Part shown: positions 1,314 through 53,245 of the stretch, in pieces
Position numbering within the stretch: the first letter of the stretch is position 1
How the letters are laid out: each line of letters opens with the position of its first letter
Origin: Amorphoplanes digitatis
GTDB lineage: Bacteria > Actinomycetota > Actinomycetes > Mycobacteriales > Micromonosporaceae
NCBI RefSeq assembly: GCF_014205335.1
Contig: NZ_JACHNH010000001.1
Location: 1,860,001 to 1,924,000, forward strand
DNA: 64,000 bases
Direction: 5' to 3'
The notes under the pieces: generated by a model
What the model saw: only the letters and a program-made list of their open reading frames with translations
Databases searched by the model: none
Told to the model about the DNA's origin: nothing
Program-made: the position numbers and the translations under genes

Positions 1314-2861
1314 GTGACCGAAATTCTGTCCGACGAGGCCGTGGCGTTCGTCGCCGATCTTAACCGGCGATTCCGGCCGCGCCGCAACGAGCTGCTCGCT
1401 GCCCGCGCCGCCCGCCGTGCCGAGATCGCCGCCGGCGGCACGCTCGGGTTCCTGCCCGAGACCGCCGACATCCGGGCCGGTGACTGGACGGTGCCCGCCG
1501 CGCCGGCCGACCTCACGGACCGGCGGGTGGAGATCACGGGACCGACCGAGCGCAAGATGACCATCAACGCGCTCAACTCCGGCGCCAAGGTGTGGCTCGC
1601 CGACCTCGAGGACGCGAACACCCCGCACTGGGCGAACGTGGTGGACGGCCAGCAGAACCTCTACGACGCGATCCGGCGCACCATCTCCCTGGAGACGCCG
1701 GCGAAGACCTACGAGCTCGGCGGCGGGCCCTACCCGACCATCGTGATGCGCCCGCGCGGCTGGCACCTCGACGAGCGGCACCTGCCGGTCGACGGCGAGC
1801 CGGCGGTCGGCGCGCTCGTCGACTTCGGGCTCTACTTCTTCCACAACGCCGCCGAGCTGCTCAGCCGCGGCAGCGGGCCGTACTTCTATCTGCCCAAGAT
1901 GGAGTCGCACCGCGAGGCCGCGCTCTGGAACGACGTCTTCACCTACGCGCAGGAGGCGCTCGGCATCCCGGTCGGCACGATCCGGGCCACCGTGCTCATC
2001 GAGACGATCCCGGCCGCGTTCGAGATGGACGAGATCCTGCACGCGCTGCGCCCGCACATCTCGGGCCTCAACGCCGGCCGCTGGGACTACCTGTTCAGCA
2101 TCATCAAGTACTTCCGGGACAACCCGGCGATGGTGCTGCCGGACCGTGCCGCGGTGACGATGACGGCGCCGTTCATGCGGGCATACAGCGAGCTGCTCGT
2201 CTCGACCTGCCACCGGCGCGGCGCCTTCGCGATGGGCGGCATGGCCGCGTTCATCCCGAGCCGCCGCGACCCCGCGGTCAACGAGATCGCCCTCGCCAAG
2301 GTCCGCGAGGACAAGGAGCGGGAGGCCGGCGACGGCTTCGACGGCTCCTGGGTCGCCCACCCCGACCTGGTGCCGGTCTGCCGGGAGATCTTCGACCGGG
2401 TGCTGGGCGATCGCCCCAACCAGCTCGACCGCCGGCGCGACGACGTGGCCGTCGACGGCGCGCAACTGCTCGACGTCGCCGCCACCGGCGGGGTGGTGAC
2501 CGAGGCCGGCCTGCGGAGCAATGTCTCGGTGGCGCTCCAGTACCTGGAGGCCTGGTTGCGCGGCAACGGCGCGGTCGCCATCTTCAACCTGATGGAGGAC
2601 GCGGCCACCGCGGAGATCTCCCGCTCCCAGGTCTGGCAGTGGATCCACAACGGGGTACGCCTCGACGACGGCACCGCTATCACCGCGGACCTGGTCGCGC
2701 GGATCGAGGACGAGGAGCTCGCCAAGATCCGTGAGGCGCTCGGCGAGCAGGCGTGGGCGGGCAGCCGCTTCGACGACGCCCGCAAGCTCTTCGAGCGGGT
2801 CGCCCTCGCCGACGACTTCGCGGACTTCCTGACGACGGCCGCCTACGACTCGATCGACTGA
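1314..2861 (+). CDS. aceB: Malate synthase A
   Basis: Condenses glyoxylate with acetyl-CoA to malate. The 515 residues fit the short A-type enzyme. The family signature [15 protein letters not shown] is seen at about residues 247-262, and the mid-region (about 85-95) has [13 protein letters not shown], which carries active-site residues. No isocitrate lyase is nearby. Instead the gene sits inside a urate/allantoin degradation cluster, so its likely job is to assimilate glyoxylate released from ureidoglycolate, as known for Streptomyces allantoin clusters. GTG start at 1314. The next gene starts 2 bases after the stop, so they are translationally close. Confidence 0.95.
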
Positions 2862-2863
2862 CG

Positions 2864-4012
2864 ATGCGGCTCGGTGACGACGACTACGCCGCCCTGGACG
2901 GCCGGCTCGCCGCACACGACGCGTTCCTGGCCTCGCGGTACCCGGGCGAGCGCCCGGGCCGGCAACCGGTGCACACGGTCTACATACCGGCCGACCGCAT
3001 CGCCGGCTTCCGGGACTGGGGCGCGATCGCGCTGGCGGCGCTGGACGAGCATCCGCCGCTGCCGTTCCCGGCCGCGCTCGCCGACCGGGTCCGGGCCAAA
3101 CTCGTCACCGAGCCCATCGAGGATCTGCGCGTCGACTTCGAGGACGGCTACGGCGTCCGCGACGACGACCAGGAGGACGCCGCGGTCAAGGCGGCCGTCG
3201 CCGTGCTCGCCGACGGCGCCCGGCCGCCGTTCGTCGGCATCCGGATCAAGTCGCTGGAGGCCGCGACCCGGCGCCGGGCGCTGCGCACCCTCGACCTGTT
3301 CCTGTCGCAGTATCAGGAGCCGTTCGTCGTCACGCTGCCCAAGGTCAGCGGCCCGGACCAGGTCGCGGCGATGGTCTCGCTCTGCGAGCGGCTGGAGCGC
3401 GGGTACGGGCTGGGCGCCGGCACGCTGCGTTTCGAGATCCAGATCGAGCTGCCGTCGGCGGTGCTGGGCGCCGACGGCACCGCGACGGTGGCCCGGCTCA
3501 TCACGGCGGCCGACGGCCGCTGCACCGGCCTGCACTACGGCACGTACGACTACAGCGCGGCGGCCGGGGTGGCGGCGGCGTACCAGGCGATGGACCACCC
3601 GGTCGCCGACTACGCCAAGGCGGTCATCCAGGCCGCCGCGGCCGGCACCGGGGTGCGGCTCTCCGACGGCTCGACCAACATCCTGCCGGTCGGCACGGAC
3701 GCGGCCGTGCACGACGCCTGGGCGCTGCACCACCGGCTCGTCCGCCGGTCCCTGGAACGCGGCTTCTACCAGGGCTGGGACCTGCACCCGGCGCAGCTGC
3801 CGACCCGCTTCGCAGCCACCTACGCGTTCTTCGCCGACGGCGCGGACGCGGCCGCGACGCGCCTGCGCCGCTATCTCGACCGCCAGTCGGGCGGCATCCT
3901 GGACGAGCCGGCGACGGCCCGGGCGCTGGCCGGCTTCCTGCTGCGCGGCCTGGACTGCGGCGCGCTCGACGACGCCGGCTTCACCCGCGAGGAGCTGTCC
4001 GCCTTCCGCTGA
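2864..4012 (+). CDS. Malate synthase/HpcH-aldolase-like TIM-barrel protein (DUF6986-type)
   Basis: A 382-residue protein beginning MRLGDDDYAALDGRL. Segments such as RFEIQIELPSAVLG, LHYGTYDYSAAAG and RVDFEDGYGVRDDDQEDA resemble the carboxylate- and metal-binding strands of malate synthase and the citrate-lyase/HpcH aldolase superfamily. The exact reaction is not known to me. The ATG at 2864 is 2 bases after the malate synthase stop and was chosen over longer in-frame alternatives that lie inside aceB. Its tight linkage to aceB suggests a role in glyoxylate or C4 chemistry during allantoin use, possibly a glyoxylate aldolase. That role is inferred from context only. Confidence 0.8.
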   Translation: MRLGDDDYAALDGRLAAHDAFLASRYPGERPGRQPVHTVYIPADRIAGFRDWGAIALAALDEHPPLPFPAALADRVRAKLVTEPIEDLRVDFEDGYGVRDDDQEDAAVKAAVAVLADGARPPFVGIRIKSLEAATRRRALRTLDLFLSQYQEPFVVTLPKVSGPDQVAAMVSLCERLERGYGLGAGTLRFEIQIELPSAVLGADGTATVARLITAADGRCTGLHYGTYDYSAAAGVAAAYQAMDHPVADYAKAVIQAAAAGTGVRLSDGSTNILPVGTDAAVHDAWALHHRLVRRSLERGFYQGWDLHPAQLPTRFAATYAFFADGADAAATRLRRYLDRQSGGILDEPATARALAGFLLRGLDCGALDDAGFTREELSAFR

Positions 4013-47484: not shown

Positions 47485-48501
47485 TTGACCGATCTGACCT
47501 CGTTCATCGCCGGGCTGCCCAAGGCCGAGCTGCACGTGCACCACGTCGGATCCGCCTCGCCGCGCATCGTCGCCGAGCTGGCGGCCCGGCACGAGGGCGC
47601 GAGCCCGGTGCCGGCCGACCCGGCGGCGCTCGCCGACTACTTCGCGTTCCGCGACTTCGGCCACTTCATCGAGGTCTACCTCAGCGTGGTCGATCTGATC
47701 CGTGACGACGAGGACGTCCGGACGCTCACCTACGAGGTGGCCCGGGAGCTGGCCCGTCAGCAGGTCCGGTACGCCGAGCTGACCATCACGCCGTACTCGC
47801 ACGTGCGGCGGGGCATCCCGGCGGCGGAGTTCTGCGCGGCCATCGAGGACGCCCGCAGGAGCGCCGCCGCCGACTTCGGGATCGACCTGCGCTGGTGCTT
47901 CGACATCCCGGGCGAGGCGGGGCTGCCGGCCGCCGAGGAGACGCTGCGGATCGCGCTCGAGGAGCGGCCCGACGGGCTGATCAGCTTCGGACTGGGCGGC
48001 CCGGAGGTCGGCGTGCCGCGGCCGCAGTTCAAGCCGTACTTCGACAAGGCCCGCGCGGCCGGGCTGCGCAGCGTCCCGCACGCGGGTGAGACCACCGGGC
48101 CGGAGACGATCTGGTCCGCGCTGCGCGACCTGGGCGCCGAGCGCATCGGGCACGGCGTCTCCGCCGCCGGCGACCCGGAGCTGATGGCCTACCTGGCCGA
48201 CAACCAGGTGCCGCTGGAGGTCTGCCCGACCTCGAACGTGCGGACCCGTGCCGTGCCGAGCCTCGACGAGCATCCGCTGCCGGCCCTGGTCGCCGCGGGC
48301 GTGCCCGTGACGATCAACTCCGACGACCCGCCGATGTTCGGCACCACCCTGGAGGAGGAGTACGCGGTGGCCGCGCGACTGCTCGGCCTCGACACGGCCG
48401 GGGTGGCCGAGCTGGCCCGCGCGGCGGTGCGCGCCTCGTTCCTCCCGGCCGGCGGCAAGTCCGCCCTACTTGCCGAGATCGACGGCTACGCCGCCGGCTA
48501 G
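47485..48501 (+). CDS. Adenosine-deaminase-family enzyme
   Basis: A 338-residue zinc aminohydrolase. Zinc His17/His19 (KAELHVHHVGS), His199 (PHAGET) and Asp280/Asp281 (NSDDPPMF) are present, plus the catalytic Glu in HAGET. The common HxHLDG(S/T) motif reads HVHHVGS, typical of an actinobacterial subgroup. Some members deaminate aminodeoxyfutalosine in menaquinone synthesis, so that activity is an alternative to adenosine. TTG at 47485 follows GGGGGAG, 9 bases after tam. Its stop shares CTAG with the opposing small gene. Confidence 0.85.
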   Translation: MTDLTSFIAGLPKAELHVHHVGSASPRIVAELAARHEGASPVPADPAALADYFAFRDFGHFIEVYLSVVDLIRDDEDVRTLTYEVARELARQQVRYAELTITPYSHVRRGIPAAEFCAAIEDARRSAAADFGIDLRWCFDIPGEAGLPAAEETLRIALEERPDGLISFGLGGPEVGVPRPQFKPYFDKARAAGLRSVPHAGETTGPETIWSALRDLGAERIGHGVSAAGDPELMAYLADNQVPLEVCPTSNVRTRAVPSLDEHPLPALVAAGVPVTINSDDPPMFGTTLEEEYAVAARLLGLDTAGVAELARAAVRASFLPAGGKSALLAEIDGYAAG

Positions 48502-48662
48502 CGGCCGAAGCCGGCGTAGAGGGGGTCCTGCCAGATCGCGAGCACCGCGAGGATGCCCAGCGTCAGGATCGTGACCACCCGTACGACCCGGCGCCGGTTG
48601 AACCGGCCCGGGTCGTCGTCCGGCTCGAGCTCCGGGTCGGTCCGTACGTCCGTGTCCAGCAT
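48498..48662 (-). CDS. Small single-helix membrane protein (54 aa)
   Basis: MLDTDVRTDPELEPDDDPG is an acidic cytoplasmic part, then RRRVV and one membrane helix VTILTLGILAVLAIW with a short exterior tail ending YAGFGR. ATG at 48662 is preceded by GGGGAG 5-6 bases upstream. It starts 22 bases after the large surface protein, so it is probably co-expressed. Function unknown. Confidence 0.65.
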   Translation of the reverse strand: MLDTDVRTDPELEPDDDPGRFNRRRVVRVVTILTLGILAVLAIWQDPLYAGFGR

Positions 48663-48684: not shown

Positions 48685-50895
48685 TCAGCCGGGAACCGCC
48701 GTCCAACTCTGGTGCCGGGCCTTGTCCGGCTGTTGCAGGACGAGCAGCCGGGCGGCGCCGAAGCGCTGACTGCCCACGCCGGCGACCAGGTCACCGACGG
48801 TGGTACGCAGGCTGAATCCGTGGTCGGTGGCGAACAGCGACCACCGGCCGGCGACGGCGCTCGCGCAGTCTCCCTGCACCAGCGGCGCGCCCGCCACCGG
48901 GTTGCCGCCCAGCGGCACCACGCACTTGCCGGTGGCCCGGGACTGGAGGCTGTAGCCGCCCCCGCCGGCCGGCACGAGCCGCCACTGCTGCTGCGAGTCG
49001 CCGTCCACCCCGCCGAGCGAGAGCGGCGTGCCGTTCGCGGTCCTTGCCGCGTACAGGTCCGCGGCGCCGCCGGTGAGCGAGTTCGTCAGCACGAACCACG
49101 CGTTCGCCGCCGGCCGTGCCGCGGGCGCCGACTGCGCCGTTGCCCGGGCGAGGTAGCCGTTCGCGGTGCTGCGGATGCTCACCTGGTACTTGGCGTCCGG
49201 GCGCAGCCCGATGAGCCGGGCCCGGGTGGCGACCGTCGTCGCGACCTTCACCCCGTCGACCTGCACCTCGTACGTGGCACCCGGCGCGGCGGCGCCCCAG
49301 GTGAGCCGGACGGAGGTGCTCGTCGGGTCACGTACCTCGAGGAAGGCCTGCGCCGGCGCGGCGGCCGGGTCCGTGGCGACGACCTCCGGTGGCGGCCCGG
49401 TGGCCTCCTCGACGGGCGCGCCCGTCGTCGGCGCCGGCAGGCCGGGCACCGGAACCACCGGTCCGCCGGGCGGCGGGCCGTCGCCGCCGCCGTCGGACAC
49501 GTCGCCGCCGCTCGCGCCCGGCACGGGCACGCCCGGCGCCTGCGTCGGCGCGGTGGGCGGGGTGGCCCGCGGTGTCACGGAGGGCTTCGCGTCCGGCTGG
49601 TTCGGTGCGTCCGGCGCCTCGTCGCCGCCGTCGCCGCCCAGCAGGAACTCGCTCTGCGCGACGTTCCAGTTCTTCGCCAGGTAGCTGCCCGGCGCCGGGT
49701 CGGTGCTGAAGTAGTCGTCGTGACCGCAGTCGAGGCGGTTCTCGTGCTTCTTCGGGCAGACCGTGCGCAGCGCGGTGCCCGAGCGGTCGCCGGAGCAGAG
49801 CAGGTCGTGGTCGTCGGTGCAGCTGCCGGCGCCGGTGGAGTTGGGCGAGTCCTGTAGCAGGGCGCCCAGCATCTGGGTGGTCTGCTGCGCGGCGACCGCC
49901 GAGCTCCAGCAGCCCGAGTCGACCCGGCCGTACGACGGACCGCCGTTGTTGCGGTTGCCCAGCCCCGGCCGGCTATCGGCGATGAACGTGCCGATGCCGC
50001 AGTACACGTTGGTGTCCGCGAAGATCAGGTACTTTCGGTCGGTCCGGTTGTAGCCGAGCGTCTGCAACGCGGCGATGTTGCCGGTGAACGACTCGAGCGC
50101 GCCCTCCGGAAGCTGCACCTCGGCGACGTCGACCCGGCACTGCGGCGTGGTCACGAAGCGGATGTGGCGCGAGCCGCCGGTCTCGGCCGCGCTCGCGTCG
50201 AAGATCTGGTCGACGCCCGCGGACCAGGTGCGGATCGAGCCGACGAAGCCGGTGAAGCGGCTCGGCGTGCCGAACTCGTGCAGGTAGAGCACCTGGACCC
50301 GCTTGCCGGTCCGGCCGTCGCCCTCGCAGGCGACGTCGTGCGCGCCCATGATGAAGTCCGCCTCGCCGGGCGCGGCGTCCGGGATCAGCGCGGGCGCGCC
50401 CGGCGACAGGGAGCTGCCGCCCTGGTCGCGGACGATCTCGGCGTCCGGCGGCACCGTCGCGGCCTCGCGCCTCGGCTCCTCCGGCTCCGGCGCCTTCACG
50501 GTCACCGGCGGCACGTCGCGGCTCACCGCGAGCCCGGCCGGTGCCGTGTCCGGGCCGTGCGTGCAGGTCTCCTCGTCGAGCTCGTACATGCCCGCGCAGA
50601 GCGAGCCCTTGCCGGCCGGCACCAGTCCGTCGTAGACCAGGCCCTGGCCGGGGTCGTCCTCCGGCAGGGACGCGTAGGTGATCCGCTCGCGGTCGCCGCC
50701 GCCGTCCGGGCTCCAGGCGTCGCCGACGACGCTCGGCCCGACCACGCCGCCGATGCCCAGCACGGCGACGCCCAGCACCACCGGCAGCAGCCGGTGCGGT
50801 CGGTGGGTCGCGCGACGCCGTCCGCGCTCGGGGACCGGGCGCCGCCGGCCCGGCAGCGCCTCCCCACGCAGCGCGGACTGTCGGTGGCTGGACAA
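48685..50895 (-). CDS. Surface protein: inactive metalloprotease-like domain, FnIII, ricin-B lectin
   Basis: A 736-residue protein. Basic N-terminus then one membrane helix (about 36-57). Residues about 95-415 look like the ectodomain of actinobacterial zinc proteases: CRVDVAEVQLPEG, CGIGTFIADSRPGLGN, CTDDHDLLC and DCGHDDYFSTDPAPGSYLA match those enzymes, but the HExxH position holds QQTTQ (residues 337-341). A Pro-rich linker (about 418-512), FnIII (about 517-588) and a ricin-B lectin domain with QQQW (about 595-735) follow. Probably a binding protein rather than a protease. TTG at 50895 with GAGGAG 5 bases before it; the frame has no better start. Confidence 0.8.
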   Translation of the reverse strand: MSSHRQSALRGEALPGRRRPVPERGRRRATHRPHRLLPVVLGVAVLGIGGVVGPSVVGDAWSPDGGGDRERITYASLPEDDPGQGLVYDGLVPAGKGSLCAGMYELDEETCTHGPDTAPAGLAVSRDVPPVTVKAPEPEEPRREAATVPPDAEIVRDQGGSSLSPGAPALIPDAAPGEADFIMGAHDVACEGDGRTGKRVQVLYLHEFGTPSRFTGFVGSIRTWSAGVDQIFDASAAETGGSRHIRFVTTPQCRVDVAEVQLPEGALESFTGNIAALQTLGYNRTDRKYLIFADTNVYCGIGTFIADSRPGLGNRNNGGPSYGRVDSGCWSSAVAAQQTTQMLGALLQDSPNSTGAGSCTDDHDLLCSGDRSGTALRTVCPKKHENRLDCGHDDYFSTDPAPGSYLAKNWNVAQSEFLLGGDGGDEAPDAPNQPDAKPSVTPRATPPTAPTQAPGVPVPGASGGDVSDGGGDGPPPGGPVVPVPGLPAPTTGAPVEEATGPPPEVVATDPAAAPAQAFLEVRDPTSTSVRLTWGAAAPGATYEVQVDGVKVATTVATRARLIGLRPDAKYQVSIRSTANGYLARATAQSAPAARPAANAWFVLTNSLTGGAADLYAARTANGTPLSLGGVDGDSQQQWRLVPAGGGGYSLQSRATGKCVVPLGGNPVAGAPLVQGDCASAVAGRWSLFATDHGFSLRTTVGDLVAGVGSQRFGAARLLVLQQPDKARHQSWTAVPG

Positions 50896-51045
50896 ACCAT
50901 CTCCTCGTGCTGCGGGGGCGCGGTGGGAGGGGGTTATGGGGTGACCACCTCCCACCGCTGATCGGCTCGTCCGGCCCAGAGTGTGGGGTCGTGCCGTGGG
51001 ACGCGGACCGGAAAGCCGGATGGGACCGGGATAGAGCGTGTCAGT

Positions 51046-51137: not shown

Positions 51138-52559
51138 TCACGTCTCGTCCGTGCGCTGATGCGGCCACATGCGCTTCACCGGATCGCGTTCCCGGGCCAG
51201 CCGCCCGACCAGCCCGAACCGGCTCGCCTGTTTCGGCAGGGCCTCGGCGTCGGCAAGCAGCATCACCACGCTGGCACCGCCCATCGCGGCCCGGTCGATG
51301 CTCACCGAGCCGCCGGTTGCCTGCGCGGCCCGCCGCGCGATGTCCAGGCCGAGGCCGGTCGAGCCCTGCTCGCTCTCGCCGCGGCGCAAAGCCTTCTCCG
51401 GGTCGTCGATGCCCGGCCCCGCGTCGTCGACCCGGACCGCCGCCCATCCGTCGCGACGGGTGATGCCCACCTCGAACGCCGTGCCCTGCGGGGTGTAGCG
51501 GAACACGTTGCCGAGCACGGCGTCGAGCGCCGCGGCCAGCTCCGCCCGCGCCACCGGCACGGGGATGCGCAGGTGCGCGCCGACCACCCGGTACTGCCGG
51601 TTCTGGTCGCCGGCGAGCGCCGACCAGAAGACCATCCGGTCGCGGACCACCTCGCTCGCGTCGCAGACGCCCTCCTCGGGCGCGGCGACCTGTGCGGCGA
51701 CCGCCTGGCGGGTGGTGTTGATCAGCTGGTCGACCTCGGCCTCGAGGGTGACGATCGCCTGCCTGATCCGCCGTATCCCGCGCCGCCGGTCCAGCTCGGC
51801 CGCGGAGTACTCGCCGATGTGCGTGTCGTCGGGGTCCAGCGCCTCGGCGTCCAGGCGCAGCACCGTCAGCGGGGTCCGCAACCGGTGCGACAGGTCGGCG
51901 ACCAGCTCCCGCTCGCTGGTGCGCGAGGTGACCAGCCGGTCGGCCATGCGGTTGAACGCGTACCCGGCCTCGGCCAGCTCGCGCGGGCCGGACGGGTGGA
52001 TGCGCACGCCCAGGTCGCCGCCGCCGACGGCCATCGCGGCGTGCACCAGGCCGCGCACCGAGGTGACCGCGCCGCGGGCGAGCCGGTCCACCACGATCAC
52101 CGAGCCGAGGACCAGGCCCAGCATGATGCCGAGCAGGATCCACAGGTCGCGGGCGGTGCCCGCGCTCAGCTCGTCGTCGCTGACGAAGACCTCGACGACC
52201 GACGTCTTGTTGCCGGTCCGGGCGGGCTCCAGCACCACCAGGCCGCCGTCCACATCGATCACGAGGGGCTCGGTGCCCTTGGCCGCGTCGAGCACGTCGT
52301 CGGCGCCGGCGCGGGTGTTACCGGTCGCGCCCGGCGGGTGCACGATCAGGCCGCCGCCCGCGCCCGCGACGGCGGCGTCGAGCGCCTTGGCGTTCGCGCC
52401 GGACACGACGGCGCCCGCGACCTTGGCGCTGCGCTGCTCGGCGGCGGAGATGGCCTGTTCACGGTGGTCCTGACGCAGCTCCCAGCCCAGCGGGACCAGG
52501 AACGCGAGTGCGGCGATGGCGGTGGTGGCGGCGCTGACGTAGGCCAGCCGCGCCCTCAG
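51138..52559 (-). CDS. OmpR-type sensor histidine kinase (CTG start)
   Basis: A 473-residue membrane kinase. TM1 right at the N-terminus (AYVSAATTAIAALAFLVP), extracellular part (about 30-150), TM2 (ILLGIMLGLVLGSVIVV), HAMP, phospho-acceptor His in LVADLSHRLRTPLTVLR, and HATPase with DAVLGNVFRYTP, VDDAGPGI and GSTGLGLDIARR. No ATG, GTG or TTG precedes TM1 without overlapping the regulator by more than 100 bases, whereas CTG at 52559 overlaps the regulator's stop (CTGA). A CTG start is inferred. Confidence 0.85.
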   Translation of the reverse strand: MRARLAYVSAATTAIAALAFLVPLGWELRQDHREQAISAAEQRSAKVAGAVVSGANAKALDAAVAGAGGGLIVHPPGATGNTRAGADDVLDAAKGTEPLVIDVDGGLVVLEPARTGNKTSVVEVFVSDDELSAGTARDLWILLGIMLGLVLGSVIVVDRLARGAVTSVRGLVHAAMAVGGGDLGVRIHPSGPRELAEAGYAFNRMADRLVTSRTSERELVADLSHRLRTPLTVLRLDAEALDPDDTHIGEYSAAELDRRRGIRRIRQAIVTLEAEVDQLINTTRQAVAAQVAAPEEGVCDASEVVRDRMVFWSALAGDQNRQYRVVGAHLRIPVPVARAELAAALDAVLGNVFRYTPQGTAFEVGITRRDGWAAVRVDDAGPGIDDPEKALRRGESEQGSTGLGLDIARRAAQATGGSVSIDRAAMGGASVVMLLADAEALPKQASRFGLVGRLARERDPVKRMWPHQRTDET

Positions 52560-53245
52560 TCCGGCGCCACCAACCGGAATCCGACCCCCCGCACGGTGCG
52601 CAGGTAACGAGGCTTCGCCGCGGACTCGCCCAGTTTCCGACGTAGCCAGTACAGATGCACGTCGATCGTCTGGTCCTCGCCGACTGACGGCTGTCGCCAT
52701 ACCTCCTCCAACAGCTCACGACGCGAGACGACCCGGCCCGGTCGGGCGGCCAGGTAAGCCAGCAGGTCGAACTCCTTGCGGGTCAGTGCCAGCGGCTGCT
52801 CCGCCAGGCTGGCGCTGCGTTCGCCGATGTCCACCCGCAGGTCGCCGACCTCGTGCACGGCGGGCTGGGTGGTCCGGCTGGCCCGGCCGACGCGGCGCAG
52901 CACGGTGGTGATGCGCGCGTCCAGGTGGGCGCCGGTGAACGGCTTGACCATGTAGTCGTCGGCACCGGCCCGGAGCAGGCGGACGACCGTCTGCTCATCG
53001 TCACGCGCCGTAGCGATGATGATCGGGATGTCGGTGATGCCGCGCAGCATCCGCAGCGCGTCCGAGCCGTCCAGGTCGGGCAGGCCCAGGTCGAGCACCA
53101 CCAGGTCAGGGGTCTCCGCGGCGACTCGGCGCAGTGCGTCGAGAGCCGTACCGACGGCGTGCACGGCGTGTCCCCGGTCGGCCAGCGACCGGAGCATCGC
53201 ACCGCGCACGACGTGGTCGTCTTCGACGAGCAACACCGTGGCCAT
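52556..53245 (-). CDS. OmpR-family response regulator
   Basis: A 229-residue regulator: receiver with LLVEDDHVVRGAM, phosphoacceptor Asp in LVVLDLGLPDLDG, Lys in YMVKPF, and a winged-helix effector domain (LTRKEFDLLAYLAARPGRVV, then HLYWLRRKLG). ATG at 53245. It is the first gene of a leftward operon with the kinase, followed after 242 bases by the surface protein gene, so it may control that gene. Confidence 0.95.
   Translation of the reverse strand: MATVLLVEDDHVVRGAMLRSLADRGHAVHAVGTALDALRRVAAETPDLVVLDLGLPDLDGSDALRMLRGITDIPIIIATARDDEQTVVRLLRAGADDYMVKPFTGAHLDARITTVLRRVGRASRTTQPAVHEVGDLRVDIGERSASLAEQPLALTRKEFDLLAYLAARPGRVVSRRELLEEVWRQPSVGEDQTIDVHLYWLRRKLGESAAKPRYLRTVRGVGFRLVAPD

Follow-up and report, generated by a model that had tools for sequence, protein, structure and literature searches.

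Does a bacterial protein that is shaped like a metalloprotease, and that reads QQTTQ where its relatives read HExxH, still cut, or has it been kept to bind? The question is raised by a gene in a 64,000-nucleotide stretch of the Amorphoplanes digitatis genome (herein the window, meaning the whole stretch that was analyzed). An earlier note, made from the sequence alone, had proposed a pseudo-protease recruited for binding, carried on the surface with a lectin domain and placed next to an OmpR-type two-component system. Our analysis makes it probable that the gene encodes a membrane-anchored, catalytically dead metzincin fused to a fibronectin type III (FnIII) domain and a β-trefoil lectin, fixed genus-wide and binding rather than cutting. 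The features discussed are collected in Table 1.

Table 1. Features of the locus, in window coordinates
Feature	Position	Strand	Basis or remark
Pseudo-metzincin / FnIII / ricin-B gene	48685..50895	(-)	TTG start, 736 aa
N-terminal hydrophobic segment (residues 36-57)	50725..50790	(-)	Hydropathy script; possible uncleaved membrane anchor
Ectodomain N-terminal Cys-pair segment (CAGMY...CTHGPD)	50479..50700	(-)	Alignments; HExxH relatives have the segment too
Putative pseudo-metzincin domain (residues about 180-423)	49627..50358	(-)	AlphaFold2 model and structural matches
QQTTQ replacing HExxH (residues 337-341)	49873..49887	(-)	Alignment to HExxH relatives
Ser358, column of the relatives' invariant His (putative third zinc ligand)	49822..49824	(-)	Residue table
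Leu366-Cys-Ser368 replacing Met-Cys-Tyr	49792..49800	(-)	Residue table
Fibronectin type III domain	49156..49341	(-)	Pfam PF00041
Ricin-B type β-trefoil lectin domain	48703..49098	(-)	Pfam PF14200 and PF00652
54-aa single-span membrane protein gene, downstream neighbor	48498..48662	(-)	No Pfam match
Sensor histidine kinase, upstream neighbor	51138..52700	(-)	Pfam HAMP, HisKA, HATPase_c
OmpR-type response regulator	52556..53245	(-)	Pfam Response_reg, Trans_reg_C
Conserved 28-bp element, 11-bp-spaced repeat CTTAG-N7-TTAA	51058..51085	(-)	Lies some 160 nt before the start codon, just after the kinase
Leader inverted repeat, 35 nt, just upstream of the start	50922..50956	(-)	62/67 genus loci and L173

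Domain architecture and predicted fold

An open frame runs from a TTG codon at 50895, preceded by AGGAG as read from the sequence, to the stop at 48685; residues are numbered with this TTG as 1. An Arg-rich tail of 35 residues precedes the 22-residue hydrophobic segment, which may hold the protein in the membrane. A strict A-x-A motif beyond this segment was found by script in 4 of 67 members of the genus, as against 25 of 40 others; its absence is a weak sign of anchoring, because the HExxH copies L187-L191 likewise go without A-x-A by the same script. A Pro-rich linker stands between the protease-like domain and FnIII. The FnIII and ricin-B domains named in the earlier note both have Pfam matches: fn3 scores 24.9 against a cut-off of 25 in the whole protein and 26.7, above the cut-off, in the C-terminal part alone, and RicinB_lectin_2 (PF14200) reaches 67.1 bits against a cut-off of 25.6. 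PF14200 and PF00652 are found in 74 of 74 scanned members (E 0.01). By its profile matches the lectin domain belongs to the ricin-B family, and sugar binding is predicted for it.

An AlphaFold2 model of the ectodomain built from 52 sequences (pLDDT 81.8, pTM 0.82), in which the Cys-pair segment is modeled with high confidence as far as query residue 70 or so, bears out the proposed protease-like fold. VIA-align places the model closest to Amuc_1438 (8df2; Z 11.5, 173 residues, 3.1 Å, 10% identity), with further matches to OgpA (Z 11.3), ADAM17 (Z 9.6) and the dead ADAM22 (Z 8.8), and Z is at least 8 for 103 of 999 chains. The 50 entries listed consist of Akkermansia glycopeptidases, ADAM and ADAMTS proteins, enzymes from snake venom and an enterotoxin of Bacteroides, all of which we take to be metzincins. 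The model of the HExxH relative L083 yields a similar list (best Z 11.7), and for both models the best matches are Akkermansia OgpA (6z2o, 6z2d) and Amuc_1438 (8df2, 8dek), at Z 11.1-11.7. On this similarity to solved metzincins the modeled domain is assigned to the metzincin fold, though Foldseek TM-scores are low (at most 0.47 among the matches listed, with a single match, at 9.6e-4, that reaches E 0.001). Pfam gives no protease match for the window protein, single and profile searches of PDB sequences returned nothing at E 10 and E 1, and among four HExxH relatives scanned L083, L106 and L102 pass a Pfam Reprolysin cut-off and L094 has no match.

Catalytic-site residues in the genus and its relatives

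Every genome examined from the GTDB genus to which the window belongs (Actinoplanes sensu lato, 67/67) has an orthologue, the other 66 being 61-89% identical; many of these genomes are represented twice, by a G locus and by a named one, and counts out of 67 cover the G loci and the window only, and the family sample comprises 300 genomes. For comparison we used 54 relatives outside the orthologue group, 50 from other genera and four second copies in genus genomes (L187, L193, L194 and L195); the linked copies of Catenuloplanes, L173, L204 and L077 (same contig as L186) were excluded from this set.

The cysteine-rich blocks CTDDHDLLC and DCGHDDYF align with those of HExxH-bearing relatives. In the residue table H337, E338, H341, the downstream His358, Met366 and Tyr368 are all present in 54 of 54 relatives, so that QQTTQ at the columns of His-Glu-His is a replacement beyond chance. 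We read the six residues as a metzincin-type catalytic set, with His358, on the strength of its conservation, as the probable third zinc ligand; at the classical metzincin position +10 the aligned relatives have neither His nor Asp, apart perhaps from a few rows that align poorly. Their Met-x-Tyr resembles, on our assumption, the Met-turn of astacins and serralysins. All six residues are missing in the window protein, and a search for a true HExxH elsewhere in it found no HE..H. Judged by its residues, the protein lacks every mark of an active metzincin, namely HExxH with its Glu, the third ligand and the Met-turn Met. OgpA, as described in PMC7518263, joins a metzincin fold to a β-sandwich domain similar to FnIII and has an intact H205/H209/H215 triad and Glu206. 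Neither triad nor Glu has a counterpart in the window protein, which would thus be without a three-His zinc site of the OgpA type.

The full catalytic set is found in none of the 67 genus members, as against 54 of 54 relatives, and its residues have fared unequally: His358 remains in 0/67, Met and Tyr in 2/67 each, and Glu in 53/67, while the H-E-H triplet, and with it the spelling HExxH, persists in 22/67. Four members (the window, L128, L144 and L160) have none of H, E and H. That QQTTQ might be the motif of a clade is rejected by the family alignment, where the Q-Q-Q triplet occurs in the window alone among the 67; across the genus, His at columns 337 and 341 has given way to R, Q, L, I, V, T, M, K, Y and D. 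Such scattered substitutions would fit a site under little constraint rather than a new binding motif. The cysteine framework, as the earlier note had it, was kept as the zinc site was lost. Among 22 columns with ≥97% fixation across the 54 relatives, 15 are still fixed in the genus and seven are released (337, 338, 341, 346, 358, 366 and 368), all except 346 belonging to the catalytic set; the retained columns include the four cysteines among the 22, unchanged in the genus, together with Gly344, Pro351, Asp364 and Asp393-394.

The further claim, that all ligands and the catalytic Glu went together, did not hold; the losses were stepwise. The fewest changes on a tree are one for His358, two for Met, five for Glu, 14 for H341 and 13 for H337. 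This tree was a quick one, with site columns omitted and long-branch warnings; it holds 106 of 133 aligned rows, L195, L204, L206 and most named non-genus rows being absent. Read on it, the probable third ligand His358 was lost first, once, at the base of the genus, and HExxH decayed later, piecemeal and many times. Ranked by change among 237 core columns in the genus, H337 stands at percentile 97.0, H341 at 95.8 and the Glu column at 59.9.

Streptomyces sp. SKN60 (L083) may still show the ancestral state, a secreted metzincin-like peptidase with an FnIII-lectin tail. Its ectodomain and tail are homologous to those of the window protein (about 45% ectodomain identity) and the order of FnIII and ricin-B is the same; it differs in having HELGH, the His before Cys and MCY intact, as well as a signal-peptide-like start with A-Y-A, and its locus has no homologue of the window kinase or regulator. 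From such an ancestor, H358 would have been lost at the base of the genus, the Met-turn Met and the Tyr after it at roughly the same point; the HExxH residues would then have drifted lineage by lineage, with fold, disulfides and lectin held by purifying selection.

Catalytic residues are also missing outside the genus. Catenuloplanes (group g7) reads HQLVH in 5 of 5 copies, with only the Glu lost, to Gln, and His358, Met and Tyr kept, whereas most genus members kept the Glu and none the His. L204 (g30; 1965-3959), which lies beside a related kinase pair, reads RQLDR, the remaining catalytic region being deleted; its frame is open and, by eye, an FnIII-lectin-like tail is kept. L173, a sister genome, has HELTH with His358 and Met kept and Trp for Tyr. 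An AU test did not reject a joint clade of the genus and Catenuloplanes (p 0.108), and unordered parsimony with regain allowed gives two dead/intact changes on a 45-row tree. The independence of the two losses is therefore argued from the different residues lost together with the intact-type sister L173, and not from the tree alone.

A second family copy (E 0.001) occurs in only 4 of the 67 genus genomes, and those four copies have HExxH. With 63 of 67 genomes lacking one, the protein would not in general serve to regulate an active paralogue within its own cell. The second copies L187, L188, L193 and L194 are not beside the kinase and retain the whole of HExxH, His and Met; each shares its genome with a linked copy. 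A plasmid search gave 2 distant records.

The two-component neighbors and the upstream repeat

The adjacency of the gene to an OmpR-type pair and to a 54-aa membrane gene, remarked on in the earlier note, is conserved across the genus in the order regulator, kinase, gene, 54-aa gene. The kinase is beside the gene in 67/67 genus loci (in L133 as a partial match only), the regulator is present in 66/67 (L171 reaches the contig end), and the 54-aa gene adjoins in 66/67 (it was not found in L143). Taken at its longest, from 52700, the kinase frame shares 145 bp (52556-52700) with the regulator gene, and the true start may lie downstream. A functional link to the pair is less secure than this synteny suggests: outside the genus the kinase (E 1e-100; 235/300 family genomes in all) is present in 168/233 genomes and the ectodomain family (114/300 in all) in 47/233, partly at other loci.

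Eleven kinase loci were picked from genomes without an adjacent copy to see, in a filtered ORF list, what occupies the slot. Behind the kinase in L209, L210 and L214, which are genomes without the protease-like gene, there are membrane genes like the 54-aa one. L213 (group g19) has a different, secreted-looking protein of 202 aa in the slot after the kinase (2661-3269, in kinase orientation, the reverse of the strand on record).

The 28-bp element is found in 62/67 genus loci at no more than 7 substitutions (9 allowed) and in L173; the remaining 5 genus loci carry a variant with 10-11 mismatches, as against 13-16 on the reverse-strand control. A degenerate longer form has its sole match in its own genome, at ≤3 mismatches, at this site. 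The core pattern CTTA[G/T]-N7-TTA[A/G], scanned over 1000 nt upstream, is present in 67/67 genus loci and 9/14 further family copies (L173, five of Catenuloplanes in a diverged form, L180, L181 and L186), one site per locus, and a reverse-strand scan of all 81 gave none. The scan did not detect the pattern in L179, L182-L185, L213 or L217. Nine of the 11 kinase loci without the gene also have it, at 37-240 nt past the kinase match, and so the element travels with the kinase locus and not with the gene; its use as a mark of the protease-like gene alone was rejected on the same ground. Loci in the series L207-L216, which have no protease-like gene, show CTTAG-N7-TTAA just after the kinase. OmpR/PhoB-type regulators often use two half-sites one helical turn apart, and CTTAG-N7-TTAA is a candidate operator of the response regulator.

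The leader inverted repeat is likewise the sole genome match of its degenerate pattern at ≤3 mismatches. A hairpin acting as RNA was considered for it and set aside: it shows only weak covariation (two-sided changes occur in 3 pairs, a figure reached in 3/500 shuffles, with 27/500 for the covariation score and 97/500 for cells paired), and three Rfam matches on the leader all fall below gathering scores, leaving no family above threshold.

Two ways of tying the protein to its neighbors follow from these observations. In the first, the two-component system controls the protein as one of its outputs, a surface adhesin or receptor whose gene is expressed from a predicted regulator site behind the kinase gene, and we judge the case for and against it to be about evenly balanced. 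It accommodates the repeat upstream of every genus copy and most further ones, the repeat behind kinases that have no such gene, and the persistence of the kinase without it. Weighing against it, the repeat consensus was derived from the window and its relatives and only afterward tested on the loci, the repeat is missing from the seven loci named above, and at loci lacking the gene it may act on the 54-aa gene or on some other target. Expression of the gene would then possibly be switched by the neighboring regulator.

The second, in our judgment unlikely, makes the protein a ligand-binding input subunit of the kinase, its lectin and pseudo-protease parts sensing an extracellular glycan or peptide and relaying the bound state to the kinase. 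The regulator-kinase-gene order is kept in the genus, Catenuloplanes (5), g29 (1), g44 (6), g26 (1) and g30 (1), and every catalytic loss among the fetched loci sits beside such a pair; yet H-E-H, His and Met are all intact in eight linked copies (g29 1, g44 6, g26 1), G128, a seventh genome of g44, carries the kinase with nothing that matches the family, and the kinase is far more widespread outside the genus than the ectodomain family, as counted above. Taken as the accessory sensor of a three-component system, the protein has the expected adjacency and, outside the genus, lacks the expected co-occurrence with the kinase; an obligate sensor subunit is weakened by the kinases that do without the gene.

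Probable binding without cutting, and a parallel among animal pseudoproteases

Could the protein nonetheless be an enzyme, one that binds metal in a different geometry or has its active site elsewhere? We think this very improbable. The HExxH spelling kept by a third of the genus speaks for it, as do Asp361, Asp364, Asp389 and Asp393-394, which are kept in the genus; however, these Asp residues look structural because they are equally fixed in the HExxH relatives (Asp364, 389, 393 and 394; Asp361 in 46/54), columns 337 and 341 drift, the window protein has lost the whole metzincin set, and four genus members retain none of H, E and H. In the 22 of 67 members that spell HExxH, metal binding by two His is conceivable. 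A decaying pseudogene, to which the lost active-site residues might point, is scarcely credible, given 0/67 orthologues with internal stops in the matched part, dN/dS of 0.055-0.338 for the aligned segment in 15 pairs of close genus members selected by hand, 128 columns that are ≥97% fixed, and conserved upstream elements.

By these sequence measures the remainder of the protein is under purifying selection. Homology to an enzyme family, loss of the key residues and maintenance of the gene by selection together make it a pseudopeptidase, whose inactivity, like the absence of zinc, is predicted. The most likely reading of the whole is a surface binding protein with a peptidase shape and a lectin tail, which would act as a receptor or adhesin through the lectin and the conserved remainder of the ectodomain.

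Pseudoproteases are best known from animals. The pseudopeptidase ADAMs (ADAM11, ADAM22, ADAM23 and ADAM7; MEROPS M12), as treated in the review PMC11266112, resemble the window protein in their metzincin fold, lost zinc site, membrane anchoring (probable for the window protein) and additional ectodomains. Their dead motifs in Table 2 of that review (QTLGQ, QSLAH, QSLAQ and HQLGH) are of the same kind as QQTTQ, and ADAM22 is among the structural matches of the window model. The ADAMs differ in being animal proteins with disintegrin and EGF modules, as against a bacterial one with FnIII and ricin-B at about 10% identity, and they keep, in the same table, the Met-turn Met that the window protein has lost. 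ADAM22 binds LGI1 by its surface and not by its pseudoactive site (PMC11266112, figure legend). Since the dead site drifts, binding by the window protein would likewise be expected away from it, in parallel to the ADAM22-LGI1 surface.

Where the consulted passages of the review touch on bacteria and prokaryotes, they mention only M16-type prokaryotic homologues, besides reference entries. An earlier description of such a bacterial pseudo-metzincin was not among the matches listed in a partial coverage of the literature on bacterial and actinobacterial pseudoproteases and on Actinoplanes metalloproteases, and a search for Actinoplanes surface proteins or a lectin metalloprotease gave nothing useful. 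The parallel may be carried further, to a bacterial receptor of the ADAM22 type: a secreted metzincin, encoded beside a two-component system, turned into a membrane-anchored lectin receptor that gave this system a new extracellular input in the genus, with at least two independent conversions (through Glu to Gln in Catenuloplanes and through the lost third ligand in Actinoplanes) and a third lineage by deletion. We offer this extension tentatively and consider it rather doubtful.

For the surface binding protein that we favor, the genus and its neighbors provide a series from an apparently complete site (L173) through HELTH without the third ligand to QQTTQ, along which fold and tail are conserved. 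Because such a series, from intact to QQTTQ, exists in one genus and its neighbors, the steps by which the enzyme died, in their order, and likewise its new function would be directly testable in culturable soil bacteria.
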